Source of the DNA: Pyrenophora tritici-repentis
Taxonomy: Eukaryota > Ascomycota > Dothideomycetes > Pleosporales > Pleosporaceae
Direction of reading: 5' to 3'
DNA length: 64,000 nt
Assembly (NCBI RefSeq): GCF_003171515.1
Contig: NC_089392.1
Coordinates: 2,108,001 to 2,172,000, forward strand
Below the pieces are notes generated by a model. That model saw only the letters and a program-made list of their open reading frames with translations. It was not told the DNA's origin and did not search any database. Positions 36,421 through 55,628 of the stretch are shown here, piece by piece; position 1 is the stretch's first letter; each line of letters opens with the position of its first letter. Made by a program: the position numbers and the translations under genes.

Positions 36421-36602
36421 ATGGCCGAGGCACCTTCAAGCAGAGAGCAGAGATACAAGTCTTTCGACGACTCATGCACCGCACCATCGAGCACGCATCT
36501 ATATGAAGGCAACACCCAGCCTCTAGAGCAGCACCTAGATGAGTCCGAGGGCTTGAGGAAACTTTTGAACACCGAACTCTCCACCATCGACCCCTCAGCT
36601 TC
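36421..36602 (+). pseudogene. 5' part of a host-type ORF split by Copia insertion
   Basis: The frame opens with MAEAPSSREQRYKSFDD and runs to STIDPSAS, where the Copia LTR begins. The 5 bp before the LTR (GCTTC, 36,598-36,602) is the target duplication. The same frame resumes on the minus strand at 47,970 as SEDAEQQEYTQEQP after the other Copia end. Joining the two across one GCTTC keeps frame exactly. The protein family is unknown to me. The gene is disrupted and its two halves are now in opposite orientation, ~11 kb apart. Confidence 0.8.
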
Positions 36603-36725
36603 TGTTGCACGCTAGCAGGGCTATCCCTACACTCTCTCATTCCTCACATATATATAGCTTCCCTCGTTCATAGCTATACAATCAACTCAGTCCTTCATCT
36701 CTTCTTCCATATCACATACGTGAGA
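36603..36725 (+). repeat. 5' LTR of Copia element (123 bp)
   Basis: Starts TGTTGCACGCTAG and ends ACATACGTGAGA, with a TATATATA box in the middle. It appears identical over its full length to the inverted copy at 47,971-48,093, implying a recent insertion. The left target duplication is GCTTC (36,598-36,602); its partner is GAAGC at 47,966-47,970. Confidence 0.93.
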
Positions 36726-36738: not shown

Positions 36739-36845
36739 ATTTGCCTACTGCAATCTTTTAACCACTGAAGTTCACTCAACTGCCATCTCTTTGGCATCTA
36801 TCTCCCGACAACCTATCCCAACTTTGCGATACTCTGCTATCTAGA

Positions 36846-38216
36846 ATGGCATCAGTTGAAACCCAGAGGTCTACTAAGACCGTTGTCATCCTGACAAAAC
36901 CAGAGGACTGGTCCCTTTGGCTCTTTCAACACAAGGATAAGGCAGTGTCACATGGAGTATGGGAGTACTGTAATCCAGCAGTCTCTACACCACCCACTCT
37001 TACGCCAAAACCTGAACGCCCTATACTCCCAGATGGAGACCTTACGGCCGAAGTTCTTCAAGTACAGCGAATGAAGCTCAGCGAGTGGGAATGGAAGTAC
37101 AAGGAGTGGCACCAGAAAGACAAAGCTCTCAAGGAGATCTGCACTGACGTGGCATCAACAATCTCCACTTCTTTGATTCCTCTCATCCAGAATGACGCAA
37201 CTGCACACGCACGACTAGCCAAGCTCAGAGCCCACATAGCCCCATCCGACCCTACCCGAAGAAGAGAGCTTAGGGTGAAATACGACGCTCTACGATCACC
37301 TAAACCGCGCAACACAAGCGTGGACAAATGGCTAGACGAATGGATACGCGTCACTGACCTCATGGCTATGCTTGACATGCCTGAGATGAAAGGAGGACAA
37401 GTTCAAGAAGAATTCCTTGTCACAGCCAACAAGCTACATGAGACCTGGGCTACAGCTGAGCTCCGCAAGCTTTTGGATCTACAGGAAAACCCAGCGGTAA
37501 AAGACTTAGATCTACCGACAATCAATACCCTAGTTGCTAGCTTCCGTCAATTTCTCCGCATTATAAAACCCCAAGGATCGACCTTTGGAACATTCGGCGC
37601 CTCTCTCGGCATCGCTGACAGCAGCGGGTCTACCAAGGCCAATACTACCGAAGAAGGACCTAGCCAGAATCAGAAACCTCAAGCGAAGCATAATCATCCA
37701 CCAGGCAAATGCATCTGTTTAGAAGAACATTGGTATTCAAACTGTCCCTACATCAATCCTGCAGTTCGCCGAGCAGGATGGACACTAGACCCAGAGATTG
37801 AAGCCAAGTTTAAAAAGGCTAAGAAGAATCCAAGAATTGCCAAGCAGCTTCAGAGAGCTGCGGAAAGGCAAAACGCGAAGGCTACATCCGAACCAACCAC
37901 AACGCCTATTGCCTTTGATGCCCAAGCCCATGGCGATCATCAACCCCACAGCATGGCTTGTTCTTTTCAGGCCTTCTCTACCAATCATGTATCCAACCCA
38001 CCTTACATCAACCGATGGATCATGGATCCTGGATCAAATGTTCACGTCATCAACTCCAAATCATGGAGATGGACCCACACTCGGTACAGTACAGCTGACG
38101 AAGCTTTGTACGCTGGCTCACAGTCAGTCTCTATCAGCGAATGGGGAAATGTTATCATTCCAGTGAGGACACCAAATGGTATACAGGACATCCAGCTTAC
38201 CCACGTTGCCCTAGTG
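36846..38216 (+). pseudogene. Copia Gag-protease, truncated by hAT
   Basis: The frame starts MASVETQRSTKTV and contains a Gag domain (residues ~1-260). It then has a Cys/His knuckle variant (CICLEEHWYSNCPY, ~290-303) and an aspartic-protease start, WIMDPGSNVHVINSK. DPGS replaces the usual DSG/DTG and may be a family variant. Coding stops making sense at THVALV, where hAT copy 1 begins; the continuation EGFFANILSLSR is found at 52,116 on the minus strand. Confidence 0.9.
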
Positions 38217-38387
38217 CAGTGATCGGAATGGTCTGGTCTGGTCTGGTCTGTACCCTCAGACCAGACCAGACCAGGTGCTTACATAAGGACCGGTCCGACC
38301 AGACCGGTCCGACCAACAAGACCGCCAAGAATGAGGCTGAAGCAAAGAAGGAAGCCGAGGAAATGTGTTTTACTACTGACTGTCAAT

Positions 38388-40843
38388 CTAGTAGTCTTCG
38401 TTCTCACTATCCTCGATATCGCTGTTCCCCTCAGCTTGGGGCTTTCCATACCAGGCCCGGAGACACTCGCACGCTTCTATAATATCTGCCTTCAGCCTAC
38501 CACGGCGATCGACGATAGTAAGCTTCGCGCTACTAAAAAGACGTTCGCATTCATCCGACATAGGCGAGATCGCAAACATGTCTAGAGCGAAGCGAGCGAG
38601 ATCTCGTTGGGAGTCGTAGCGAGATAGCCAGTACGCAATAGCCTCATTGCAACCTGCCTCTTCGTTATGAAGCCGGTCAGTAGAGATGTATTGTTCATAC
38701 AAATCAGTTGTAGAAACTGGAGCGTCTATTCGAATGCGCTTATGTTCCCGCTGGCGATCAAATGCTGGGTCAGGATCTCTCTCCTTCCTGGCTGGTGGTG
38801 GCAGCATCTCGACAGGGTACCTTCCCTTATACTCTGTCTCCCAGAGATGCTTCACCGCTAATTGTGCGTTTTCAAACCACCTCTTCTTCTCTTCGTCGCC
38901 ATGAAGAACCCACTCTTGCCTGAACCATCCCCACTTGCGATATGGATTAAGGATTTGAGCCGCATAATATGCCGGTGGAAGGTCAGTATCTTCAGGGAAT
39001 CGATTTTGCCAATTCAGCTGCTGATTGTTATAGTACTCAACGCACTTTAACTAAGCAGCATCAGCGCAGCCTTGAAGGTACTTCCATGTAAAGTTGTTAT
39101 CGTCCTCAGTCTGGATGTCGTGGTAGTGATCCTTCGTCTCGCTTATCTCCCGGAGAAGGCAGTCCAAAGTTGAAAACCAGTCCGCAAGTGACGTCTTCTT
39201 ACCTTCAGAAAGCAAAGTTGTAGCATAGAAGTCTTTGAGAGCGAGTTCAATCTTTTTAAGCTCAAACCAGTGCTGTCCATCAAGCTTAAAGTTCGCGATC
39301 CCTACGGAGCCCTTTCCAGGTACATGACGAGCCGAGAAGATGTAACGGTGTGAGGAGAGGAGGAGGACTGCGTTGCATTGTGTAGCTATGGAGGAACTGC
39401 AGCTATATAGGTGTGTGTGATGAGAAAGTGTGGTAGCGATGGCCGTACCCAACTCTCACCCAAGTCGGTCTTGGCAAGTCCCAAACCGTTACAGAAGAGC
39501 TCTAAACGTTCTCGAACATTTAATGCACGTGTAATCGAATAAAACCATGAGTTCCAGCGGGTCGAGTTGTTCTGGATAAGCTCAAGCCCGTCGAATTGCG
39601 AAAGATCTCCGCCGATAATAATTGTAGCAAACTCCTTACGCCGTTGTGGAGTAAGCCTGATGTATCGCACCAGGTTGTGAAGACGACCCAAACATCCGAA
39701 CTTCTTCCAGAGCTCTTCCACCTTCGTATAGTCGCCACGTTGATGATGCTTCTCCAGCTTCGCAAGATACTTCTCACAGTTTCGCCCCATAAGGAACGCC
39801 TGGCAACAGAGGTTGATGACATGGCCCAAGCAACGCAGCCGGCGATGACGACGTTGTTTTGACTTCATCCATGGGCAGAGATCCTTGAGTATAAACTCAA
39901 CAGCGGTATCATTTGCCGAGGCATTATCCAGCATAAAGTATCCAATCTGATCTCCGCTAATGTCGTATTCTTCCAGCAATTCAAGGACCACCGATCCAAG
40001 ATTCTCTCTAGTATGTTCGCCGTATATACGTCGCATACCTAAAGCGGTAACACGTCGCATGCCGGTAGTATTAATCCACATAGCGACGACGCCTAGGATA
40101 GCGTAAGGGTTTGGTGAAGTCCAGAGATCAAAGGAGATAGAGATCCTACTCCGTGAATGGTGTAGGTCCTCCCTAAGCTGTTGCTTCTTCGATATGAATG
40201 CATTTATTACCCAGCTTCGGATAGTCTTCGCAGCCTTCGGGAGGTGGTTGAGTAGTGCCGGATTTAAAAAGAGGAGTAGTTCACGAAAGTACTGGTTCTC
40301 TAATTGAAAGAAGGCGATATGGCAGTACACAATCCAACGAATTAGAAGCTCTTTAAACTTCTCTACTGACTCCTTCTAGAAAAAGGTGCTGGAAGCAGCC
40401 CCATCCTTTTGCTGGTCGATTATAGACTTCCGTACAGAACCCTTTCGCTTGATGCCACTCTGGGGATCAATCTGGTGCTTCTGTTCCAGGTGATTCCGGA
40501 TCCTAGAAGTGCCATTGATGACAAACAACTCTTGCTTGCTCTTCCCAACCCTGCACTCATGGCAGTAATACACCTCTTTCTTATCGCTATCTCGAATGTA
40601 TTGGAGTCCGTACTTCCAGATGTGTGATGTACCTTGACGGAAATCCTTCCTTGCAATTATTGCACGTTTCACGTACGTGATACCGCCCTGCACGAACTCA
40701 TCTGGAGATTCGTGATATTGAATAGGAGTGGGTGATAGTATAGGGGTGGGTGATGACGTGGGGATAGGAGATGGAGTAAGAGACGTTAAATCTAGTCTTA
40801 TAATATTCGATGGGGACGGTGAGGTTGGTGTTGAAGGCTCCAT
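38388..40843 (-). pseudogene. hAT transposase, inactivated (copy 1)
   Basis: Same 765-residue transposase as copy 2 but broken in three places: TGG->TAG at 40,376-40,378 (FFWKESV in copy 2), the solo LTR at 39,341-39,493, and TGG->TAG at 39,051-39,053 (DAAWLKC in copy 2). Other amino-acid differences against copy 2 are mostly G->A in the coding strand. It cannot make full transposase, but its termini look complete, so it could be moved in trans. Confidence 0.93.
39341..39493 (-). repeat. solo LTR inside hAT copy 1 (153 bp)
   Basis: A TG...CA-bounded sequence with short inverted ends (TGTAACGGT / ACCGTTACA), flanked by a perfect 5-bp duplication GAAGA (39,336-39,340 and 39,494-39,498). It is absent from copy 2 at the same place. 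In minus orientation it contains CTATATAG followed by a C/T-rich tail, similar in design to the 123-bp Copia LTR. A full element probably inserted and then lost its interior by LTR-LTR recombination. Confidence 0.85.
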
Positions 40844-41105
40844 AACAATAGTATATAAGTAGGTTGTTAAGGACTTGATTGTTCTATGTAAGTAGAAGAC
40901 TTACCTTGATCTTAATGACTCATATTGTGCTAAATTTTCTGGCTAGATTAGTCTAAGATCTAGTCACGTGGACCTATTTATAGCCGGACCGGTCCGATCA
41001 TCTAGACCGGTCCGACCACGGTCTCAAAAAATCGCCAGACCAGACCAAGTCTTGGCGGTCTAGACCAGACCAAGACCAAGTCAGACCAGACCATTCCGAT
41101 CACTG

Positions 41106-41290
41106 GTGTGTGCAGTCTGGTAGGGTAATTTCCGCCAGTTGAAAAGACTCTATCTAGGTTCCGGGCTGTGGGGCTGTAGATGTGTTGAGCAATGAAGCAG
41201 AGCTCTTGTTCTAGGGCTAGTAGGCCTAGGGCGTTAGCGTTGAAGCTGGGGGAGGAGGTGTAGAGGTGGTAAATGAGCGAGGGACTGATG
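41106..41290 (-). pseudogene. 3' coding remnant cut by hAT and LINE insertions
   Basis: Minus-strand frame reads LIYHLYTSSPSFNANALGLL, then EQELCFIAQHIYSPTARNLD and VFSTGGNYPTRLHT up to the hAT boundary. Across the second hAT, at 54,864, the frame continues LPTPKE and stops. The upstream end merges into the 3' UTR of the LINE fragment. It looks like the C-terminus of a lost gene; the family is unknown. Confidence 0.4.
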
Positions 41291-42445
41291 ACATAGACAT
41301 AAGCGGCTAAAGGCCGCCTAGTAATGTGTTTTGTAATGCCGAAACTAAAATTATCGCCGGCAGATTGTTGTGAAGTACTTGGTGAGCTCCAAAAGTGACT
41401 CGAAGTGTTCAGGCTCAGTAAGTAGAGCCTTAAGGTACCTGACGGCCTCTTTCATATTGCTTGGGGGGCTGGATGGTCGGAGCGGCCATCTGCTAAAAGA
41501 GCGTCTTGTTTTTCTGCAGAAGAGCATGTGCTCAGGTGTTTTGAGTCGCCCGCAAGAACAATTCAATTCTGCTGTGTCGTGTCTGAATTTGATGTGGTAC
41601 CATGCAAAGTCCCCATGTCGTGACCGGATGGCCAGCAGATGCGCGAGAACAGGGCGCGGAAGCGTCAGTTCGATTGGTGTCTTTGTGGTTTGGTAGGGTA
41701 GTTCCCATTGCCGGTACCAGGCCGACATTTGGGTCCGAGTTTGGTCCCACCAGCGCTGCCTGGCAGCGTTGAGCAAGGACTTAGCGATTGAACGCACCCT
41801 AGATGCTGTCGGTTCCGCGGCCATGCCGTAAGGCTGGCTGGGTGCTTTTGCTTCGGCATCGGCAAGGCGGTCTGCTGCCTCATTCCCAATAATCCCGGTG
41901 TGGCCTGGCGACCAGCGTACTTGTATGTTGAAGACTGCCATTGCTGCCTGGCACTCAAGGAATGCCCATTGCGACGATGTGGGGGCGTTGCCCCGTATAC
42001 CCCAGATAACTGACGTTGAGTCAATACACATCCATAGCCTGCGGTGGCCATGGGGGGCTAGTCTGATAGCGTGCTGGAGACCTCTCCAAGCACCCACTGC
42101 TTCGGCATCGAATACATGGGATTGGGGATTAAGCGATCCCCTCCCTATGGCAATCTGAGTCTGGGCCTGGTATATCGCGTAGCCGTAGGTGACAAAGCGT
42201 TCGCCGTCAGTGCGCTGTTCTGATCCATCAGAGAAGATGGTGACGTCCTGGTTGGTAAGGGTGTCCCACCACTTCGTAAATAATTTGGCGGCCTCAGCCT
42301 TGGCTATACCGTTTGTTGGGTCAGTGCGGCACCCTGGAGAGTAGTGCGGCGCTATGAGGGTGTGTCTGGGAATGGTAGGAAGAATCAACCCAAGTCGCTG
42401 GACTTTGGAGTGTGGCTTCTGCAAACCTCCAATTTTTTTGCTCAC
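41290..42445 (-). mobile_element. 5'-truncated LINE (Tad-like), RNase H end
   Basis: The minus-strand ORF 42,445-41,351 contains an RNase H domain: VTIFSDGSEQ, FDAEAVGAWRGLQHA, LWMCIDSTSVIWGI and VRWSPGHTGIIGNEAADRLA supply the DEDD residues. It ends in a zinc motif CSCGRLKTPEHMLFC, typical of the C-terminus of fungal Tad/I-clade LINE ORF2. Endonuclease and reverse transcriptase are absent, as in usual 5' truncation. The 3' UTR contains GGCGGCCTTTAGCCGCTTA. I found no clear target duplication. Confidence 0.88.
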
Positions 42446-43114
42446 GTGAGAGTACTAAGTGTACCATAGTTCATCTAAAACACAACCACAGAACGCGACA
42501 TTATGAGCCAATGACGCGTCTTGAAATTTAAAAATTTAATGTAGTTGTAATGAGTACGTTGAGTGTCGGACTCATCGCTATCCCGCATACGATGATCCGA
42601 AACGATCATGGTGCTGAAGATGGGGCATATGAGATACATTGTGCTATGTAAAGATGTTGATAGGGAGTAGATGGGTCGACGAATGTGGCTGCTCCCGAGT
42701 ATAATTACAGAATAGTGGCTTCATTTTTATCGAACGAGTTCAAGGTTGTGTGCTTGGAAGTCCATCCTTCAGCTGTGTGGTCTCTCAGCGGACGCCGTTT
42801 TTGTACCCCATCGGGACTTACCCAAAACAAAATATCAAGCAGCTGACATACCATTCTTCACATTATCAGCTAAACTTCTCAAACTTTAAAGCGCCTTTGC
42901 TCTACGCCGCATATTGGAAAGTCACTCAGCCGCATCTGTCTTCAAAATAGACGCGCTACGGCTCAGCTGAACGCCCAACCCGTACCACACCCGACATTCC
43001 GCTATACCATATGTTCGGCCATGCAGTTCCTATCCTCGATTCTTAGTATAAATTTTACTGCCAACTGATCCTCGTTTTAGGCAGAACTATATACTTTGAT
43101 ATCTCCTTTTCACA
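42446..43114. other. intergenic, no gene
   Basis: A/T-rich with nothing recognisable. It lies within the inverted segment. Confidence 0.5.
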
Positions 43115-44255
43115 ATGGTCGTTGTCTGTGAAGCCCTCATCCACCATCACCAGGCTGGCAAACCCATCAGGGTCAAAAACATCTTCCACAGAACAGGATG
43201 GCGATTCATGCTTTACATACGTGGAATTCACCAATTCGTAATTGCTATCACTCGAATAAGTCCGTTCTATTTTGTATGGCGCATTATCTGGGGCGTCTCT
43301 TCTTTCGTCCGCCATCAAGACTTCGACATCAAAGACTTTTACGACAACAGCCCTTTTCGTAACACCATCTCTGTACGTACATTTCCATTTATCAAACGTT
43401 GGAATTCTATCAACTAACCCTTCCAATCGTCTAGCGTACTTGGATTAACCTCCTATGCAAAGATGGGACGTCTGGATGGTCATTCTTCTGGTACCTCTAC
43501 TTTTTCTGCGCAGAAAACCAAGCAGATTTCATGAATGACTACCGCGAAGCATAGAGTATACAAGTAGAGTTTGACAGAGAGATTATACTCTTTATAGATA
43601 ACGGGGAAAGGGTTCTTGTCCCGTGCTCGAGCACAGCGGAGGATAAAGACATACTAGAGCACTTGCGCATCTTTTACAATCTCACGCATTCAAGTGGCGG
43701 TATATTCGAGCTATTTGGTGCAAAATCCAGCCAGAGAATTGATATCGTTGAGGTAAGTGCACCTAGTGCTCTGCTCCGCGAACGTCTTAGTCGCGTCTTT
43801 TTGTACAGTTCTCACTGACATTATCCAAAAAATACTAGCTACAAGACTCTACCGTAGGCGATTGCGTGGGCCCTCCCTTAGGACTAGGTCGTCATGGAAC
43901 GTACAGTCGGCAGATCCATTACTTCAGAGATCCTTCGAGTTTGAAGGGGTTGGCCATCACAAACAGACTTATTGCGGAGAATGTTTTGACAGCAGTTGGC
44001 CAGCATACGCATGCACTCAATATTGTAAGGAGTTGGGACCCGTACGTAACGAGTCTGATGGTTCTCTTGCCTGTGGCACTGAGCCTCGGTGCATCAATTA
44101 CCTGGTCGGCTATAGCAAAGCTATACTTTAATGTTGATGCCCAAGCAAGTACTCAGACGGGATTTACGATTGGAAGCTATATTATTACGGCGGGAACTTT
44201 GCTTATTGCGCTTGTTGCTTTTCTGGATACAAAAGTTAAATCAGGAGAGCGATAG
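43115..44255 (+). pseudogene. two-helix membrane protein gene with internal TAG
   Basis: My model joins 43,115-43,372, 43,435-43,752 and 43,839-44,255; all three junctions are in frame, giving 330 codons. Text such as RTWINLLCKDGTSGWSFFWY and GGIFELFGAKSSQRIDIVE is protein-like. The C-terminus has two membrane helices (LMVLLPVALSLGASITWSAI and GSYIITAGTLLIALVAFL), a layout frequent in Pleosporalean unknown membrane proteins. An in-frame TAG at 43,552-43,554, flanked by EA and SIQVEF, interrupts it; a TGG->TAG change is likely. A minus-strand ORF at 43,055-43,426 overlaps exon 1, so the strand of that part is less certain. Confidence 0.5.
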
Positions 44256-44747
44256 TCGCATGAGACGGCCGAACTGATCGGAATGGTTATCCTCTTCGCT
44301 GTAAAGTCACAAGTCCCACGTTTCTATATATATTCTAATCTTTTGGGTGATTTGGAATGCAGAAAATACACGTACAAAGACAGAGACTGATGTCCTCGCT
44401 TTCAAGATTGGGGTTTGAGCTTACACACCATTCAAATCAAACCGCGCTGCCTCTGGCTTGCGTTTCGCTCCTCGACCGAAATGATGATGTACTGAACGGC
44501 AAATCCCAAGAGAGTACTCGCAAAAGACTGATCTCATGCTAAGTCTCCAAGGTGCCAATTAGTATCGTGTATACGTGTGAGTGGATTGGGCTCAAGGGTA
44601 GAGGCTAGACTCGCTTGAGAAGAACATCCCTGTCGAAAATGACGTAGCGGGGCCTAGCCGCATCCCACTTCCACCCATCGAAGTGAACCTGCATGTCGCC
44701 TTCTTAAGACCCTTTTTACCGGCTTCAATCCTCCTCAAAATATCATA

Positions 44748-45707
44748 ATGGCGCTTCCACTAAGCATCTTCCTTGGCGGCTGTGTCGTCGCCATCCCCGT
44801 AGTAACAGGCGTCGCCCAAGGCGTGGAGCACCAAAAGAAACAAAACGAAGAAGCAGCCAACGAGTCGCGCATGTGGAAGTTCAACTGCCTTGTCAGTTGC
44901 GCCGATCCAGATCCCATTGCCCAAGAAGAGGTGGATCATGGTATCCTAGTCGTGCGACATGATAAAGTCTGGGTAGTACCGAGAGATGAGGACAATAAAC
45001 CTCAGTGGCCGGAAGGCTATGATGGAGAAGGGAAAGAACCGATGCATCCTTTCGCCGGCTTCTATATTGCGTATCCAGATGAAGATAGGAGTCCACCCGA
45101 AAGAGGGTTGGTGACTACCATCAGCGATGATCCACCAATGTTGAACTGGGTTTACTGTGATAAAGAGACGTATGAATTACGGTACTCGAACCGCACAGGC
45201 AGCATCGCGCACCATGTCGGCGTCTGGGACTGGACAGAAGATGAAACGCACCTAACCTTTGACGGATGGGAAGGCTTCGTCGCCGTCGACGAATGGGACG
45301 GAGCTGACGAAGACCCGTCCACCCCTTGGGGCAAAGAAGGACTACGCTGGGCAGTATACTACGACAAAGACGACAACGGTCTACGTGGTAAACAAAAGGG
45401 AAGAGACATGTTTGAGATTAGTCTCAAGAGGCGGATTCAAAGTGCGGAAGAACAGCTGAAGCAAAATGAAGCGGCGGAGAAGAAGATGCAGGTTAAGAGT
45501 CGGGGTGGGCTGAGCACCTCATTTGCGGCGCCGCAGAAGGAGAGGGATAAGGAGTGGGAGAAGAAGTTTGGAGAGAAGGCGCGATTGGAGCTGGAGAAGA
45601 AGTTGGCAAAGGATAGGGAGGAGGGGCAGGGGCCCGAGTGGGCGAGGGGGAGGTGGGGAACGTGGGGGAGTGATGAGGGAGGGAAGAATTGTGAGACGAT
45701 GGGATAG
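44748..45707 (+). CDS. conserved-looking fungal protein, unknown function
   Basis: A single-exon ORF of 319 residues. It starts with a hydrophobic segment (LSIFLGGCVVAIPVVTGVA) like a signal anchor, then a Trp- and Asp-rich central domain (GFYIAYPDEDRSPPERG, HHVGVWDWTEDETHLTFDGW), and ends in a charged coiled-coil-like stretch (KEWEKKFGEKARLELEKKLA). The frame is intact and codon use is even, so I take it as a real host gene carried inside the inverted segment. Family not recognised. Confidence 0.75.
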   Translation: MALPLSIFLGGCVVAIPVVTGVAQGVEHQKKQNEEAANESRMWKFNCLVSCADPDPIAQEEVDHGILVVRHDKVWVVPRDEDNKPQWPEGYDGEGKEPMHPFAGFYIAYPDEDRSPPERGLVTTISDDPPMLNWVYCDKETYELRYSNRTGSIAHHVGVWDWTEDETHLTFDGWEGFVAVDEWDGADEDPSTPWGKEGLRWAVYYDKDDNGLRGKQKGRDMFEISLKRRIQSAEEQLKQNEAAEKKMQVKSRGGLSTSFAAPQKERDKEWEKKFGEKARLELEKKLAKDREEGQGPEWARGRWGTWGSDEGGKNCETMG

Positions 45708-46828
45708 AATCGTCGACGCAGCGGTGTGTCTGTGTCACCTTGGCATCACCGTCTGCACGACTATGCCACGCGAAATCACGTGATCTTGGCAAAGAGTTCT
45801 GGACTGTCTGGTGATGATGGAGATTCCCAAAACGGACGCTTCGATAGAGATGGTACATCGGCTCTTTTCTCTCCTAGGAAAACCCCTGCCCGGATCGTTC
45901 ATGCAAACGCTTTCATGGGCCTGGGATTATTCTTGCTACAATCATGGTCAACCAGCGTTCCGCAGTGACTATTCGACTGCATCCATCAGTATGAGCACGG
46001 AATATGCCGGATCCGTCCGTCTGAAAATATTTGCGGAGATTCAGAATATCCTCAACGAAGTTGAACAAGGGAGGTACTTGATTGTCATGAAGGTGGATGA
46101 GTTGGATGTCTAGAGGATTGGTTTCGTAAATTACCGTCGGTCTCAAATATATTTGATGATGGCAAAATAAGATACACGGTAGAGATGAAAAGTTTAGATT
46201 CTCTAGGGTCTAAGAAAGGGACTTTATGTTGTAGGAAGTAGCACTCTCACAAGATAACTAAATTAATTGGACTGATATCAAGAAGCGGATTCATCTATTC
46301 GTTAGGCATTAGGTGAGGCACTTTAGAACAGTATGGAACTCACTCATAAGTACGTGGGAGTGATCAAAAAAATGGTCATGAACTGAAACGGTATCTAGTC
46401 CGGTATCATCACGGCACTACCAAGATCATCATCCTTGCTAAACAGTATATAATCATCACTTCCTCTCCATCTGCCCCATATCTCTCTTATCCCAGACCAT
46501 CGTAGTCACCCCCACCCCTCAATCAATCCTCCTGCTCATCGCCCAGTCCCGCATTATCATGTGTACGCTTTGATGATGGTCCCACTGGAAGTGCAGCCAA
46601 ACTAAAGTCGCCGGGCGTAGCGCAGTACCTAGTTATGATAGACTCCCAATCATCTTCTGCAACTGGGCTCCGCGGGACAGGGGGGTCGGGGTGCTGGTGC
46701 ATAGTGCTGGATAGGTGTCTGTGATGCCATTGCAGGGGTTGACTGTGGGGGATCTGCTGTTGGGTACCGGAGGCTTGGACTGGGCTCGGGCTCGGGTTTG
46801 GGTTTCGGCTTGGTGAAGGAAGGGGCTG
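45708..46828. other. intergenic, no supported gene
   Basis: 3' flanks of two convergent genes. Short frames only. Confidence 0.5.
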
Positions 46829-47970
46829 CTATGAGGGATATTGTTGAGGCAACTGAGATGCCTGCTGCTGCTGCACCGTCATCTTGACCCTATTCAATCT
46901 GCTTTCCTTCAATTTCCAGTCTGTCAAGGCCACAAAGGTCTCTACCCCATCCCCCTCCAACAAAGAATCAACCTTGCCCTTTGTAAACCGCAAAAAATCG
47001 CACATCACAGCCATCCTCTCCTCGAAGCTGAGATCCTTCTCCTTGACTGCTTGATCGATCATGGCCTGGTCCTAGATGTTGAGGGAAGCCAGTCCGTATG
47101 TATGGAGCCGCTCTGTTGCCTTGAGGATACCCCAGCTTGCGAGCTCAAATGACTCGAGCGGATAGCCATAGTGACCTTGGGACTGGGAATTGAGCCATCG
47201 CTTTTTGAAGGCCGTACCGGAGGGGAGGTCTCGGGCGGAGGTAATGTCTTTCATGGCTGTGACCAGGCGCTGGACGTACTGGACGCGCTCGCGGTCGGTG
47301 CGTGGGAAGGTCGGATCGTTCCCGCGTGGCGGCCATTGGAGGTTGCGGGCATGTTGGGCAACTTCGGCGGCAGCAGGGGAGTTGTATAGAAGAGGTGCGG
47401 GAGGGACTTGTGGCGCGGGGGTGGTGATGGATGGTGCGGTGTTTGTGCCCATGAAGCTGGGGCGTATGCCGGTCGCAGGGCGCGGAGGAGGTGGGCCCAT
47501 AGGCCTAGGCGGCGGAGCTCCCATGAAGCCAGAGGAAGGAGGGCCCCTAGGTATAAGAGGTGGTAGCTGCGTCGCCCCAGGAAAAGGTGTGAACGGAGGA
47601 TTCATGGCGCCGGCGGGAGGAGGCACATATCCAGAGGGTAGACCATTCATAGAGTTTTCTCCACCGAAAGTAAACCTATATGTAGCCTGCCAATCCAGAA
47701 ATTTCAGCTCATTCGGAGCGGATACAAACGTGAACCCGGTTGTAGGACCCGCGGGGTTACTCTCGCTAGCCATGCACGCTCTCTCTCTCCTAGCCCATTC
47801 CATAGCGAGTGGAATATTCGACCATAGGGTGTGTTATGAGGGTTATTCTGAGCATCAACGCCGAGTTGAATGAGAATTTGATCCCGGGTATGATAACGAA
47901 CGTCTTCAAGCGTGTCAGTTCCAATTGGTTGCTCTTGAGTGTATTCCTGCTGTTCGGCATCTTCTGAAGC
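46829..47970 (-). pseudogene. 3' part of the host-type ORF split by Copia
   Basis: Continues the frame begun at 36,421: SEDAEQQEYTQEQPIGTDTL, RYHTRDQILIQLGVDAQNN. A frameshift near 47,805-47,815 moves reading to MEWARRERACMASESNPAG, then a Pro-rich middle and TERLHTYGLASLNI. A TAG at 47,072-47,074 precedes DQAMIDQAVKEKDLSFEERM, which continues to a stop at 46,829. The TAG is most simply a former TGG. The gene therefore has three lesions: Copia insertion, frameshift and nonsense. Function unknown; the Gly/Pro/Met-rich middle suggests a multi-domain protein. Confidence 0.7.
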
Positions 47971-48093
47971 TCTCACGTATGTGATATGGAAGAAGAGATG
48001 AAGGACTGAGTTGATTGTATAGCTATGAACGAGGGAAGCTATATATATGTGAGGAATGAGAGAGTGTAGGGATAGCCCTGCTAGCGTGCAACA
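47971..48093 (-). repeat. 3' LTR of Copia element (123 bp)
   Basis: Reverse complement of the 36,603-36,725 LTR with no difference I can find. In element sense it is preceded by a G-rich polypurine tract and followed by the target duplication GCTTC. Confidence 0.93.
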
Positions 48094-49260
48094 CACCCCC
48101 CCAGACTGTAGTGAAGCGTAAGGCTGTAGTGTAGAGACTAAGGTAGCTGTCTCCAGTTTAAAGGTGAAAAGGAGTGAATAAAGTCCATGTATTAGAACCA
48201 GCCCGCTGTATTGCTGGGTAGTTCAGGAGTTTTAGTTGTTGTGAAGACTGAGGAGACGTTTAGTGATATCCTCAAGTCCTAGTTGACGTGTGAAGTTAAC
48301 GTGCTTTTGCTTTGGTAGTGCCTTTGTAAGACCGTCTGCAGGCATTTGGGCAGTAGAAATCCATTGTACATTCACCTCTCCTCTCTCAACTGCTTGACGT
48401 AGCCAGAGTTGGTGAATATCGACGTGTTTGAGCTTGGTTTGAAGTCTTTCTGTGGCCTTTGTCACAATTCCCACTGTCTGCTTGTTATCACAATAGATGA
48501 CTGGGGTGATGTCTGTTTTGAAATTAAGCTGATCAAAGAGATTGTTCCACCAAATGAACTCTGACGCAGCACGGCTGAGAGCGTAGAGTTCGGCTTCTGT
48601 AGTTGACTTTGTAACAGACCGTTGTTTCGTAGCTTTCCAGTCAATTGGCATTCCAAAGAGCTTGAATAGATAGCCATCTGAGCTACGTCTAGTAGACAGA
48701 TCGTCTGCAAATGAAGCGTCTGCAGCTCCAAAGAAGATAGGCTCAGGGTTAAAAGCAGTCCCGGGGATTGAGTAACCAGTGTTGTCAGGAGTGAGTGCTG
48801 AGGCTTTTAAGGCGAAATTGCGTGTCTTGACCAAGAAGCGCCAGGCATGAATTGCAGCGCGTAGGTGTTGTTCTCCAGGATTGTTGAGATACCGGGAGAG
48901 AATTGAGTGGGTGAGTGAGATGTCAGGTCTTGTGAACACTGAGATGTAGGCTAAGGAGCCAACTAATTGCTGGTATCTTTTCTTTAGTGCTTTGTCTACC
49001 ACAGTGTTTGGCTCAAGGTTGGTTTCAGCCATTGGAAAATCAGGTAAGGTAGTTGCTCCTTCCATCAAGTTGTACTTATGTGCTACCTTATCAATAAAGG
49101 CGTCTTGAATCAGCCAAGTTGATTGTTGAGAGATATCGCGAACTACGCGTATACCGAGGAACCAGTTGAGTTGACCCATCGATCTAAGCTCATACTTCTT
49201 GAAGAGCTTGTCCTGGAATTCCTTGTGGATGTCCAGCTTCGATGGATGTACTAGGACAAC

Positions 49261-49418
49261 CACAGTTGTCAACAAGCAAGTCAAGTCTCAATCAAGTCTC
49301 TATCGATAAGGGATCAGACCATCCTATGGGACGTGTCCTCGTGCACGGTTATCCCTATGGTCTGTTTGCCACTATCGATAACAATCAAGTCGGCTTGACT
49401 TGCTTGTTGACAACTGTG
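49261..49418. mobile_element. hAT-type MITE 1 in Copia RT (158 bp)
   Basis: Perfect 25-bp inverted ends starting CACAGTTGTCAACAAGCAAG, with an 8-bp duplication AGGACAAC at 49,253-49,260 and 49,419-49,426. It has no coding capacity and is placed directly after the YVDD catalytic motif. Confidence 0.92.
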
Positions 49419-50196
49419 AGGACAACTATATCATCAACATAGAAGAAGACAATAAGACTGTTGTTGGCAAAGAGACATGGCGTATTTGGGATTTGTTTGA
49501 GGCCAAGATCTTGGAGTGTGTTGGCCAGGTCCTGGTACCATAGTAGAGGTGCTTCCTTTAGGCCATATAAGGCTCGGCGGAGGAGAAGCAGAGCTCCAAA
49601 TTGAGTTGTGAAGCCTTCAGGTGTGTTGCAGTACAGTTTCCTAGGTACCCGAGCATTGAGAAATGCGTTCATGGCATCGTATTGGAACATAAGTAGTCCA
49701 AACTTAGTTGACATTGCGATGAGAGCTCGAAAGGTTTTAGCTGCTAGTGTAGCAGCGTAGGTGTCACCCCATTGTGTTTGGAGATCACCTCTGACCACAA
49801 GTCGCGCTTTAGCTTTCAAGAAGTAGCCATCTTCGTCAAACTTGTTAGTGTATACCCACATGAGGGGCAGAGTCTCTGCATCAGCAGTGAATGGAGTTAC
49901 TTTGGTGTTCTCGAAGCAACCTTTCTTCCAACAGTCGTCCATCTCCTTTTTCATGGCGTTCCAGTACAAATCGGCCTGGGGATGAGAAACGACGTCTTTG
50001 AACCGCTTAGGTGGTTCAGGCATCTGATCTCGATGAAGCCTAGTCTTTGGAGTAATGGCTGTAATCTTCTCATAGAGTGTTGGGTGAAGGGAAGTTGCAA
50101 AGGTTCCATAGTAGGTAAAGAAGTTTGATGAAACTCTGTCTTGTCCCTTCTTAGCGCGGCTGCGTCTGCTTCCAGTAATTACATTGTGATTGTAAG

Positions 50197-50358
50197 CACA
50201 GTCCGCAACAATCAATTAAGTGGGTCCTAGAAGGTTCAGATTGGATTGATTGATTACCGCTTTAAGCCTAGTAGTTACCTATAGGAGTTTAAGCCCTACC
50301 TAGATAGGTAAGTGGGTCTAGGAGAGTGACCGGATTGAATTGATTGTTGCGGAGTCTA
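50197..50358. mobile_element. hAT-type MITE 2 in Copia integrase-RT linker (162 bp)
   Basis: Inverted ends CACAGTCCGCAACAATCAAT / TAGACTCCGCAACAATCAAT (three mismatches in the outer five bases), with an 8-bp duplication ATTGTAAG at 50,189-50,196 and 50,359-50,366. The ends resemble those of MITE 1 (CACAGT...CAACAA). Confidence 0.85.
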
Positions 50359-52124
50359 ATTGTAAGGGGCTAGACCCCAGCGGCTGTATCGATGACGATA
50401 CACAGATGACTGATCAAGAGATGCCTTGTAACAGAGTGGATTTGACAAAGAGCTACAAAAGGATGCTAGCTGTACATAAATACAGGAGCGGACCGAAGAT
50501 GGGCCGAAGTAGAATTAGATGGATGATGACAGAAACCTATAGATGTATCTCGAAGGAATCGCATGACGACAGCTACGCACACAGCGTAGCGCATGTAATA
50601 GGCTCAGCCTGTTACAGTGATCTCCAATGTCTGGATGCAAAGCTTGTGGTGCATTGTTGTTGTGCCGATCTGGGAGATAGCCAGGTATGTCGTATGCATG
50701 GCGAGATTCCATTGATGGAGTTGGGCGCTGTAGGACAGCTATTGTTGAGTTGGTTGGTGATGGTGAGCGTGAAGGACTCATGGTTCCTTTAGTTAAGTCC
50801 ATTGGGCTTCTGTCCGAATATGCGGCGGAAATCTCTATTTCTTCAAGATGCTGGTCCAGTTGCTCAGTGGTGTAGAGATCTTTAGCAGTAGCAGTGAAAT
50901 GAGGTTGTTCGAGATCTAGAGTCTCTACCTCTTGTTCAGTGATCTTGTTTGTAGTGATGTTGTTGAGTTTATCGTCCTTATAAGAGAATTGCCACTTAAA
51001 GATAACGTCTCTAGTCCTAATTACGCGGTCGAGTGTCGGTATCCAGACTCTGTAGATGTTTGATGAGTCGTATCCAACGAGGTATCCGATGTGAGCTCGT
51101 GGCTCAGTCTTGTCAGCAGCTTTGATGTCTCTGCGATAGACATAGGCTCTGCACCCAATAGGTGAGTAGTGAGCTACCGAGGGCTTTGTATTGAAAACAA
51201 CTTCATGAGGTGTCTTCCATCCAAGTGAATGGACTGGTGTAGTGTTGAGCAGCTGTACTGCTGCGACAGCGAGCTCATTAGTGAGGTCTTTTGGCAGTCC
51301 TGATGAAATGCGCAGAGCGCGAGTGCGCTGCATAATAGTCCTGCCTGCTGCCTCTTGGAGACCTTTTTGCTCATCAGTGTTCTCAGCCGTTGTTTCAATC
51401 TTGATTCCAATGCTCTTGCACGCTGCAGCAAAGTCGCGACCAAGTCCTTTCTCGTTGTCAGATCTAATGATGATGACAACGTACTTGTAGCCAAGCTGTC
51501 GCTGGATCTTCTCAATGAGATTGAAGACAGCGGGAATAAGAGTGGTTTTAAGTCGATTTGGAAGGCAAGAGATCTCATGCCACTTAGAGAATTGGCAGAC
51601 AGCGTGTAGAGCGTATTTGTCGCCGTTGTAGCATTCTTCTCCTTGAGGGACTAGGTATACCAGGTCAATAGCGATGCGTTCGAATGGCCGAGTAGAGACC
51701 GTGTCTGGTGTACGCCGTGAGATTTGTTTGTTCATCTTTGTAAGAATGCAGTCTTCGCATTCCTTCCAGGATTGTGGAGGATCACTACCTTGGAGTTTGA
51801 AGCCTCGAACAGCTGCTTCAAGATGGCGGATGGTATCTGGCCCTGGGTGGGCCCAGATGTGATGTGCTTCAGTAGCAGTAGCCTTAAGATGAGGCTTTGG
51901 ATCATGTGATGGCCTAAATGCAGCCATGGATTGCAGTGAGTTGGCGTTTGGACGTTTCCCATCATCCGCGTCTATGAGCCAGTGACCTGCGTGGTAGTCT
52001 AGGAGAGCAACAACGTTGTTTGGAGTCGCTTGGTATAGGTGATTCTTTCCAGAATCAAAGTGAATCTTCATGTCCTTGCAGCGTGAGAGGCTGAGGATGT
52101 TGGCAAAGAAACCCTCCACTAGGG

Positions 52125-54855
52125 CAGTGATCGGAATGGTCTGGTCTGACTTGGTCTTGGTCTGGTCTAGACCGCCAAGACTTGGTCTGGTCTGGCGATT
52201 TTTTGAGACCGTGGTCGGACCGGTCTAGATGATCGGACCGGTCCGGCTATAAATAGGTCCACGTGACTAGATCTTAGACTAATCTAGCCAGAAAATTTAG
52301 CACAATATGAGTCATTAAGATCAAGGTAAGTCTTCTACTTACATAGAACAATCAAGTCCTTAACAACCTACTTATATACTATTGTTATGGAGCCTTCAAC
52401 ACCAACCTCACCGTCCCCATCGAATATTATAAGACTAGATTTAACGTCTCTTACTCCATCTCCTATCCCCACGTCATCACCCACCCCTATACTATCACCC
52501 ACTCCTATTCAATATCACGAATCTCCAGATGAGTTCGTGCAGGGCGGTATCACGTACGTGAAACGTGCAATAATTGCAAGGAAGGATTTCCGTCAAGGTA
52601 CATCACACATCTGGAAGTACGGACTCCAATACATTCGAGATAGCGATAAGAAAGAGGTGTATTACTGCCATGAGTGCAGGGTTGGGAAGAGCAAGCAAGA
52701 GTTGTTTGTCATCAATGGCACTTCTAGGATCCGGAATCACCTGGAACAGAAGCACCAGATTGATCCCCAGAGTGGCATCAAGCGAAAGGGTTCTGTACGG
52801 AAGTCTATAATCGACCAGCAAAAGGATGGGGCTGCTTCCAGCATCTTTTTCTGGAAGGAGTCAGTAGAGAAGTTTAAAGAGCTTCTAATTCGTTGGATTG
52901 TGTACTGCCATATCGCCTTCTTTCAATTAGAGAACCAGTACTTTCGTGAACTACTCCTCTTTTTAAATCCGGCACTACTCAACCACCTCCCGAAGGCTGC
53001 GAAGACTATCCGAAGCTGGGTAATGAATGCATTCATATCGAAGAAGCAACAGCTTAGGGAGGACCTACACCATTCACGGAGTAGGATCTCTATCTCCTTT
53101 GATCTCTGGACTTCACCAAACCCTTACGCTATCCTAGGCGTCGTCGCTATGTGGATTGATACTACCGGCATGCGACGTGTTACCGCTTTAGGTATGCGAC
53201 GTATATACGGCGAACATACTGGAGAGAATCTTGGATCGGTGGTCCTTGAATTGCTGGAAGAATACGACATTAGCGGAGATCAGATTGGATACTTTATGCT
53301 GGATAATGCCTCGGCAAATGATACCGCTGTTGAGTTTATACTCAAGGATCTCTGCCCATGGATGAAGTCAAAACAACGTCGTCATCGCCGGCTACGTTGC
53401 TTGGGCCATGTCATCAACCTCTGTTGCCAGGCGTTCCTTATGGGGCGAAACTGTGAGAAGTATCTTGCGAAGCTGGAGAAGCATCATCAACGTGGCGACT
53501 ATACGAAGGTGGAAGAGCTCTGGAAGAAGTTCGGATGTTTGGGTCGTCTTCACAACCTGGTGCGATACATCAGGCTTACTCCACAACGGCGTGAGGAGTT
53601 TGCTACAATTATTATCGGCGGAGATCTTTCGCAATTCGACGGGCTTGAGCTTATCCAGAACAACTCGACCCGCTGGAACTCATGGTTTTATTCGATTACA
53701 CGTGCATTAAATGTTCGAGAACGTTTAGAGCTCTTCTCGGCTCGTCATGTACCTGGAAAGGGCTCCGTAGGGATCGCGAACTTTAAGCTTGATGGACAGC
53801 ACTGGTTTGAGCTTGAAAAGATTGAACTCGCTCTCAAAGACTTCTATGCTGCAACTTTGCTTTCTGAAGGTAAGAAGACGTCACTTGCGGACTGGTTTTC
53901 AACTTTGGACTGCCTTCTCCGGGAGATAAGCGAGACGAAGGATCACTACCACGACATCCACACTGAGGACGATAACAACTTTACATGGAAGTACCTTCAA
54001 GGCTGCGCTGATGCTGCTTGGTTAAAGTGCGTTGAGTACTATAACAATCAGCAGCTGAATTGGCAAAATCGATTCCCTGAAGATACTGACCTTCCACCGG
54101 CATATTATGCGGCTCAAATCCTTGATCCATATCGCAAGTGGGGATGGTTCAGGCAAGAGTGGGTTCTTCATGGCGACGAAGAGAAGAAGAGGTGGTTTGA
54201 AAACGCACAATTAGCGGTGAAGCATCTCTGGGAGACAGAGTATAAGGGAAGGTACCCTGTCGAGATGCTGCCACCACCAGCCAGGAAGGAGAGAGATCCT
54301 GACCCAGCATTTGATCGCCAGCGGGAACATAAGCGCATTCGAATAGACGCTCCAGTTTCTACAACTGATTTGTATGAACAATACATCTCTACTGACCGGC
54401 TTCATAACGAAGAGGCAGGTTGCAATGAGGCTATTGCGTACTGGCTATCTCGCTACGACTCCCAACGAGATCTCGCTCGCTTCGCTCTAGACATGTTTGC
54501 GATCTCGCCTATGTCGGATGAATGCGAACGTCTTTTTAGTAGCGCGAAGCTTACTATCGTCGATCGCCGTGGTAGGCTGAAGGCAGATATTATAGAAGCG
54601 TGCGAGTGTCTCCGGGCCTGGTATGGAAAGCCCCAAGCTGAGGGGAACAGCGATATCGAGGATAGTGAGAACGAAGACGACTAGATTGACAGTCAGTAGT
54701 AAAACACATTTCCTCGGCTTCCTTCTTTGCTTCAGCCTCATTCTTGGCGGTCTTGTTGGTCGGACCGGTCTGGTCGGACCGGTCCTTATGTAAGCACCTG
54801 GTCTGGTCTGGTCTGTACCCTCAGACCAGACCAGACCAGACCATTCCGATCACTG
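52125..54855 (+). mobile_element. complete hAT transposon (copy 2)
   Basis: 2,731 bp with terminal inverted repeats CAGTGATCGGAATGGTCTGG.. and ..CCGATCACTG. GGTCTGG/CCAGACC subterminal repeats form hairpins at both ends. It carries an uninterrupted transposase. Left flank CACTAGGG (52,117-52,124) and right flank GCACACAC (54,856-54,863) are the reverse complements of the flanks of copy 1. A TATAAATA box (52,248-52,255) precedes the coding region. Confidence 0.96.
52387..54684 (+). CDS. hAT family transposase, intact
   Basis: A 765-residue single-exon protein that cuts and pastes the element by binding its termini. Residues ~75-125 form a BED-type zinc finger (YYCHECRVGKSKQ..., RIRNHLEQKHQID). 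The catalytic core contains ISFDLWTSPNPYAILGVVA, then GYFMLDNASANDTAVEFIL and RLRCLGHVINLCCQAFL. The C-terminus holds the hAT dimerisation block ARFALDMFAISPMSDECERL. No frameshift or stop is present, so this copy may be active and could also move copy 1 and copy 3, whose ends match. Confidence 0.94.
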   Translation: MEPSTPTSPSPSNIIRLDLTSLTPSPIPTSSPTPILSPTPIQYHESPDEFVQGGITYVKRAIIARKDFRQGTSHIWKYGLQYIRDSDKKEVYYCHECRVGKSKQELFVINGTSRIRNHLEQKHQIDPQSGIKRKGSVRKSIIDQQKDGAASSIFFWKESVEKFKELLIRWIVYCHIAFFQLENQYFRELLLFLNPALLNHLPKAAKTIRSWVMNAFISKKQQLREDLHHSRSRISISFDLWTSPNPYAILGVVAMWIDTTGMRRVTALGMRRIYGEHTGENLGSVVLELLEEYDISGDQIGYFMLDNASANDTAVEFILKDLCPWMKSKQRRHRRLRCLGHVINLCCQAFLMGRNCEKYLAKLEKHHQRGDYTKVEELWKKFGCLGRLHNLVRYIRLTPQRREEFATIIIGGDLSQFDGLELIQNNSTRWNSWFYSITRALNVRERLELFSARHVPGKGSVGIANFKLDGQHWFELEKIELALKDFYAATLLSEGKKTSLADWFSTLDCLLREISETKDHYHDIHTEDDNNFTWKYLQGCADAAWLKCVEYYNNQQLNWQNRFPEDTDLPPAYYAAQILDPYRKWGWFRQEWVLHGDEEKKRWFENAQLAVKHLWETEYKGRYPVEMLPPPARKERDPDPAFDRQREHKRIRIDAPVSTTDLYEQYISTDRLHNEEAGCNEAIAYWLSRYDSQRDLARFALDMFAISPMSDECERLFSSAKLTIVDRRGRLKADIIEACECLRAWYGKPQAEGNSDIEDSENEDD

Positions 54856-54863
54856 GCACACAC

Positions 54864-55628
54864 TGCCAACACCCAAAGAATAGGAGCACCTGAGTACCAT
54901 ACAGGGCGCTACCCGTCTTTCATGCCCCCTGGGAGGCTTTCATAGGACGTTAAACAATACATACATACATACATACATACGTGAGCAAAATTGCTGCCTA
55001 GGACAAGGCAGTATAAGAAAACCTTTTGCTCTGCAGAACTGTTCGTCTCACACAAAACAAGCCATCCTACCCACCATGCCACCAACAACCCATCTTCAGC
55101 CCCAAACACGCCTCTATCGTCGCCTTCACACCCACATCCTCCCGAAAGGTAGGGTAGCGTATCTTCGCTGCAATTCCATCCATCTCCACCCTCTCTATCC
55201 CCTCTCACGCTTTTCCTGCAGTCATCAACACTACACCCACCATGTTTCTCAAGCTCCATCGTCCCTTTTGCTCAGAGATTCAACATTCACGCAACCCAGT
55301 ACCCATCTCTCCCTCAAGGCACTCCCTCAGAGCGCATCACCCAAGAGTCACCTAGACAATCTTCCACCAAATACTACCTACAATACAGACCCCAGATAGA
55401 GGAACTCTTCTCGCTCAGAAATCTAAGAACTTGGACTACCTTCGTATCCGTGTCTTGCATGAAGCTGCTATCTATCTGTGTAGGTTATATCTGAAAATTT
55501 AGGCGATGAGTTATAAAAGCTACCCAGATATATTCTCACCATGGCACTTTTTGTGACAAAGTGTGATAGAGTCTGAGGTACGATTTCGGCGACGTCGTTT
55601 CCTCGACCACTCTCGAACGCCATTTGAA
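54864..55628. other. flank of hAT copy 2; possible small gene
   Basis: An (ACAT)n tract lies at 54,957-54,980. On the + strand from 55,076 a frame opens MPPTTHLQPQTRLYRRLHTH. A possible intron (donor near 55,148, acceptor CTGCAG near 55,219) leads to alternative frames, one of which reads FAQRFNIHATQYPSLPQG and later KYYLQYRPQIEELFSLRNLR. I cannot decide the structure and do not annotate a CDS. Confidence 0.35.

Follow-up and report, generated by a model that had tools for sequence, protein, structure and literature searches.

Ac elements of maize are hAT-type transposons. Inversions attributed to their reversed-ends transposition (Ac/fAc) are described as carrying 8-bp duplications at the breakpoints, a new shared duplication marking the event, whereas recombination between two copies creates no new duplication (PMC8225341). 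The Galileo elements of Drosophila buzzatii, belonging to the P superfamily and generating 7-bp duplications, represent the other closely related system. At the breakpoints of the polymorphic inversions 2j, 2q7, and 2z3, the published breakpoint account places Galileo copies in opposite orientation with exchanged duplications and assigns them to ectopic recombination, a process that leaves exchanged duplications together with chimeric copies, the latter being visible at 2z3; the uninverted chromosomes were sequenced as well (PMC2775673). According to the same account, hybrid-element insertion starting from copies at the same site has a strikingly similar outcome, but requires identical copies. 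Here, we analyzed a 64,000-bp window (the whole stretch C3:2108001-2172000, to which all coordinates without a contig name refer) within the 40.9 Mb genome (41 contigs) of the fungus Pyrenophora tritici-repentis, in which two copies of a hAT element flank a segment of 11 kb and have exchanged their target duplications. The locus resembles the Galileo inversions in the opposite-orientation cut-and-paste copies at the breakpoints, the exchanged duplications and the ectopic recombination that these point to. It differs in that the element is a hAT with 8-bp duplications, in the lack of a visible chimera and in that the old order is read from other retroelement copies. Compared with the maize inversions, the size of the duplications is the same, but both old duplications are exchanged in place of a new shared one.

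Two inversions accounting for 60% of chromosome 3 in comparison to isolate BFP have been reported for P. tritici-repentis (PMC5913888). This paper, the isolate of which is by inference the one analyzed here, and a further one on the same species (PMC9594970) treat large-scale rearrangements and beds of long terminal repeat (LTR) elements; within their parts on these subjects, no inversion is tied to exchanged hAT duplications. The hAT transduplication elements of this species carrying histone H3 are multi-copy and near-identical like the present hAT (PMC3538342, PMC6710886). They are, however, described as 5.6 and 2.3 kb in size with extra genes, whereas the present element measures 2.7 kb and harbors a transposase frame only.

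Copy 1 (38217..41105, minus strand, 2889 bp) belongs to subfamily A and its transposase frame is interrupted by a 153-bp insert and stops, while copy 2 (52125..54855, plus strand, 2731 bp) belongs to subfamily B and retains an open frame of 784 amino acids with a Dimer_Tnp_hAT domain. Affiliation to the hAT superfamily is based on the terminal inverted repeats (33-bp ends with 91% inverted identity in both copies), the 8-bp target duplications and the C-terminal dimerization domain PF05699 (E 4.4e-7, 30 bits vs. a cut-off of 21.4); matches of a protein search with this hAT include PtrM4_112730 of P. tritici-repentis. The copies are inverted relative to each other, with 11,019 bp between them (41106..52124), and the two repeat arms measure 1613 and 1124 bp, with identities of 100% (rounded) and 99%. 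To the left of copy 1 lies CCCTAGTG (38209..38216), being the left half of a pair at a Copia site whose partner CACTAGGG is the left flank of copy 2 (52117..52124). To its right, GTGTGTGC (41106..41113) forms one half of a pair at a site in a long interspersed nuclear element (LINE)-like sequence, with its partner GCACACAC on the right flank of copy 2 (54856..54863). Every 8-bp flank is the reverse complement of one flank at the other copy, so that both duplications are exchanged and the 5' end of one copy pairs with the 3' end of the other. All four 8-mers were re-read from the sequence, confirming the exchanged duplications as real and exactly as claimed in an initial annotation of this window. 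A simple nested insertion was rejected, since the flanks would then match.

The order preceding the inversion can be read from the two retroelements into which the copies inserted. The left Copia LTR (36603-36725, within 36598..36725, plus strand) is preceded by the 5-bp duplication GCTTC (36598-36602) and followed by the left part of the Copia (36762..38216, plus strand), which is cut at CCCTAGTG. The right part of the same Copia, comprising the integrase region and RVT_2, is now found inverted at 48094..52124 (minus strand) next to the right LTR (47971-48093, within 47966..48093, minus strand) with GCTTC on the minus strand at 47966-47970. The two LTRs are identical over their 123 bp and lie inverted to each other, each being bordered on its outer side by GCTTC. 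The piece left of copy 1 and the reverse complement of the piece left of copy 2 were searched separately against the genome; each was found at four other places with 99-100% identity, five weaker matches (68%) to the right piece being left out of the comparison. At all four places the two pieces lie on the same strand with an overlap of exactly 8 bp, as checked in the sequence. The claim that the flip restores the Copia frame therefore holds, the Copia being contiguous in 4/4 natural copies.

An equivalent search was performed for the LINE-like site with the reverse complement of the piece right of copy 1 and the piece right of copy 2. The 3' part of this element, including an RNase H domain, occupies 41106..42454 (minus strand), with its last 125 bp now located past copy 2 (54856-54980). 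At 21 of 23 other places, the two pieces adjoin and share exactly 8 bp (14 distinct copies sequence-checked), the exceptions being C1:9839977 without the second piece and C2:361708, a 46-bp fragment. This site represents a further agreeing test beyond the two put forward initially. The other of those, the rejoining of an open reading frame (ORF; DPSAS to EDAEQQEY), agrees as well and is independent of the hAT flanks, but its site is the insertion point of the same Copia, and hence not independent of the Copia. The left part of this ORF is single-copy in the genome, so that no intact ORF was located elsewhere there, and a protein search with its right part returned one cluster of 6 member sequences on 2 contigs. 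Neither the Copia site nor the LINE-like site shows a deletion, duplication, or footprint, the pieces overlapping by just the 8 bp. Because Copia pieces, LINE pieces and LTR orientation all fit one inversion, the present order is derived and the uninverted order is the older one.

Copies 1 and 2 differ by 19 substitutions and the 153-bp insert (158 bp including its 5-bp duplication). The insert is MITE-like (miniature inverted-repeat transposable element), located at 39341..39493 with the ends TGTAACGGT/ACCGTTACA and the duplication GAAGA, and the same insertion is present in three other family copies. Variants were typed in 37 two-ended copies plus five more (42/92). Among the 37, the insert and nine of the 19 substitutions are confined to copy 1, L044, L045, and L046. 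The remaining copy 1 states are common to one, four, or five further copies; at position 1270, the 19th difference, it is copy 2 that carries the rare state, together with two other copies. L044, L045, and L046 keep perfect target duplications of their own; therefore, the A-type features predate the insertion of copy 1, for which reason copies 1 and 2 are, judged by these variants, not sister copies. The same perfect duplications suggest that copies with the insert in the transposase frame apparently moved in trans.

Along the element, 18 A/B markers between positions 720 and 2697 are always of type A in copy 1 and of type B in copy 2. No marker separates the subfamilies at positions 1-719 and 2698-2731 (34 bp). 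A crossover, if any, would thus be placed in the 5' block of 719 bp (40387..41105 on the minus strand in copy 1, 52125..52843 on the plus strand in copy 2), because nowhere else are the copies identical over such a length, while the alternative stretch of 34 bp is very short. That 41106-52124 moved stands as initially annotated, but exchange exactly at the element edges is not required, the subfamily markers being compatible with a crossover solely within the first 719 bp (5') or the final 34 bp. The moved DNA most likely comprises this segment plus part of each hAT.

Three further observations concern the subfamilies. Positions 2692-2697, located between palindromic arms near the 3' end, read TACCCT in 32/37 copies and its reverse complement AGGGTA in five (copy 1 and L044-L047), representing a loop inversion. 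Assuming type B to be ancestral, copy 1 has nine G-to-A changes, all of them in TG context, resembling mild one-strand repeat-induced point mutation (RIP), also in L044-L046; few repeat families in this genome are reported with RIP in the assembly paper (PMC5913888). A third hAT of subfamily A with intact duplication reaches into the window at 1-369 (C3:2105481-2108369), 38 kb away. It is the only one among the 37 copies to share the variant at position 1727 with copy 1, probably due to a local hop.

Extension of the flank analysis to the whole genome was based on exact 30-mers of the element ends, which yielded 95 5' ends and 99 3' ends and misses copies whose ends have changed. The 8-bp flanks were read at all 194 ends. 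Apart from 10 single ends, these pair up into 92 two-ended copies, 91 of which combine a 5' with a 3' end. Identical flanks were found in 59 of the 92 and non-identical ones in 33, among which C3:2249802 and C10:3223106 are off by one base and C7:220576 resembles a one-base indel; these three are probably ordinary insertions. The 33 non-matching copies and the 10 single ends provided a set of 76 flanks, containing 11 exact 8-bp partner matches between different copies. In ten of them, the partners are a 5' and a 3' end; three reciprocal pairs account for six of these, half-matching pairs for three, and a tandem/nested copy on C9 (C9:2162563) for one. The remaining match (5'-5', C3:2149105/C5:2416001) was considered as a translocation and rejected, being 5'-5', with a GT-rich 8-mer and differing outer flanks; it was taken as chance. 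Letter-shuffled 8-mers resulted in a mean of 0.095 partner matches (maximum 2 in 2000 runs) and 8-mers from further outside in none in both controls, by which a chance match of flanks was rejected as the cause. Seven partner matches with one mismatch, all between contigs, were left uncounted, approximately four being expected from 76 x 194 ends.

Both duplications are exchanged in three pairs, namely the window pair, C1:6813342/6869608, and C1:7600937/7614907. The former of the two C1 pairs (C1:6813342-6872482) is inverted with 52,847 bp between the copies, implying an inversion of ~52.8 kb, the latter (C1:7600937-7617636) inverted with 11,239 bp, implying ~11.2 kb. The copies of C1:6813342/6869608 differ only by insertions of 688 and 169 bp and a 25-bp deletion, which may be later. 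Those of C1:7600937/7614907 differ by one base and share a variant that occurs in 3/42 typed copies; both flanks of C1:7600937 are single-copy in the genome, so no other copy displays the old order. Sister-copy insertion was rejected by sequence comparison for neither of the two C1 pairs. Three additional pairs (C4:3080679/3085386, C5:2416001/2423251, and the single ends C5:1115849/1134548) share, unlike the window pair, just one duplication, connecting a 5' with a 3' end. All three are inverted and each lies on one contig; they would fit either reversed-ends transposition or recombination involving a copy whose flanks were mismatched before.

The distance between copies was surveyed for 42 pairs of two-ended copies within 60 kb, neighbors or not, half of which (21) are inverted and half (21) direct. 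Exchanged duplications were found in four of the five inverted pairs less than 12 kb apart (two sharing both, two sharing one; C6:3010073/3013323 shares none), in one of the 16 inverted pairs separated by 12-60 kb (a duplicated flank being shared in two others) and in none of the 21 direct pairs, one of which shares a duplicated flank.

Taken together, we consider homologous recombination between the inverted hAT copies as the origin of the inversion, with a probability of roughly 0.86. An element X of subfamily A with the 153-bp insert would have inserted into the Copia retrotransposon, duplicating CCCTAGTG, and an element Y of subfamily B in opposite orientation, ~11 kb off, into the LINE-like 3' end, duplicating GCACACAC. 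Both would then have paired and crossed over in the identical 5' 719 bp by host homologous recombination, flipping the DNA between the exchange points and swapping one flank of each copy. This is supported by the exchanged flanks, the retroelement sites, the LTR orientation and the non-sister copies, and the recurrence of the double exchange at two other inverted pairs lends further support. The crossover itself, its location and its origin in the fungus, as opposed to an assembly artifact, are what we infer. Several points weigh against it: the uninverted order is read from other retroelement copies of the same genome and not from an uninverted isolate, and neither copy is visibly chimeric, with no marker switch between 720 and 2697, unlike Galileo 2z3, confining the crossover to the 28% of the element without markers. 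Moreover, the signature alone is the same for a real flip and a flipped assembly. The term "proven", used in the initial annotation, is consequently too strong, although the published assembly method makes a flipped assembly unlikely. Near-identical inverted repeats, here ~99-100% alike over 1613 and 1124 bp, may have been crossed wrongly so that the 11-kb segment is flipped only in the file, and the optical map may, in our judgment, be too coarse to reveal this. However, for the M4 assembly, PacBio reads averaging 15 kb are described as assembled with Canu, polished with Illumina data and supported by optical maps of two enzymes (PMC5913888), and reads of this length cross a repeat of 2.9 kb. 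In addition, the exchanged flanks concentrate in the closest inverted pairs, which are best resolved by long reads, and the window is free of undetermined letters (N). An assembly error is hence considered unlikely.

Still less probable is an aberrant transposition of the hybrid-element or reversed-ends type, in which the transposase acted on ends belonging to two hAT copies and integrated these at a new site, thereby inverting the segment. The family looks recent, with perfect duplications in most copies, the sister-copy form yields the same exchanged duplications (PMC2775673), and the three half-matching pairs display the pattern derived for reversed-ends transposition from PMC8225341. At the window pair, however, both duplications match and no new shared one is found. 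Forms involving two different copies should, according to the Galileo account, leave one new shared duplication, two unmatched flanks, and a deletion or duplication (PMC2775673). The sister form requires identical copies and was rejected for the window pair, considering the 19 substitutions and an insert that other genomic copies share. Aberrant transposition is thereby contradicted at this locus, unless one whole copy was later gene-converted. The lowest weight is given to a flip-flop, in which the copies would recombine repeatedly in both directions, so that two states coexist, one of them being the present order. In four of the five closest inverted pairs at least one exchanged duplication is observed, which agrees with frequent recombination of close pairs, but the one assembly shows one state.

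Beyond the pairs, three copies have flanks duplicated from others: C3:140107 (flank duplicated with C3:195992), C9:189252, and C15:10883. C9:189252 shares its 5' flank and a 166-bp insert (position 1308, also found in L054) with C9:204749 and its 3' flank with C9:153733, based on which an exchange likely took place 3' of element position 1308; an 18-bp deletion carried by C9:204749 is absent from C9:189252. On a 41-kb contig, C15:10883-13613 carries the left flank of C7:287820 on one side and the right flank of C7:220576 on the other, a junction expected from a tandem duplication or a circle between direct copies ~65 kb apart. A hAT of 2931 bp (C10:2149070-2152000) has a 5' end on both sides with identical inverted 20-bp flanks, thus forming a palindrome center, which is either a product of sister-chromatid transposition or an assembly hairpin. 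For the 15 mismatched copies without exact partner, segment loss between direct copies would give such flanks. In the public P. tritici-repentis proteins P0006, P0085, and P0086, hAT sequence occurs together with a Retrotran_gag_2 domain (PF14223); these may be gene models crossing hAT-in-retrotransposon insertions.

Regarding the gene content of the inverted segment, the initial annotation had host genes at 43.1-45.7 kb carried along. This applies to a conserved Dothideomycete gene (44748..45704, plus strand), the protein of which has its best match, with 92% identity, in Alternaria novae-zelandiae among the matches listed (120/234); no match named P. tritici-repentis is found among these. 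While the protein had no match in the Pfam copy searched, its relatives carry the precomputed Pfam family PF28325. For the ORF 43058-43444, the evidence consists of a Pfam search without match. Since both breakpoints lie in transposons, the inversion appears to break no visible host gene; the ORF at the Copia site was disrupted by the Copia itself and not by the inversion.

The mechanism as such is known, with precedent in Galileo; of greater interest is the pattern across the genome. Chromosome rearrangements are a known trait of P. tritici-repentis, and the literature sections on this topic propose LTR beds and breakage-fusion cycles as causes. Exchanged hAT duplications provide base-exact, polarized records of single events, which can be listed from one assembly. 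The window, initially presented as a directly readable case, is indeed readable, but it is not a single one in view of two more full reciprocal swaps and three half-matching pairs; its value lies in its exactness plus several sister cases in the same genome. Rather tentatively, one near-identical hAT family might act as a genome-wide shuffler, most inverted pairs below ~12 kb having flipped via both homologous recombination (the three full swaps) and reversed-ends transposition (the three half-matching pairs, plus the copies with duplicated flanks). If so, flipped segments may be polymorphic or switch back and forth within the species. The size of the family and its near-identity allow asking how often close inverted repeats flip, be it via recombination or via transposase.

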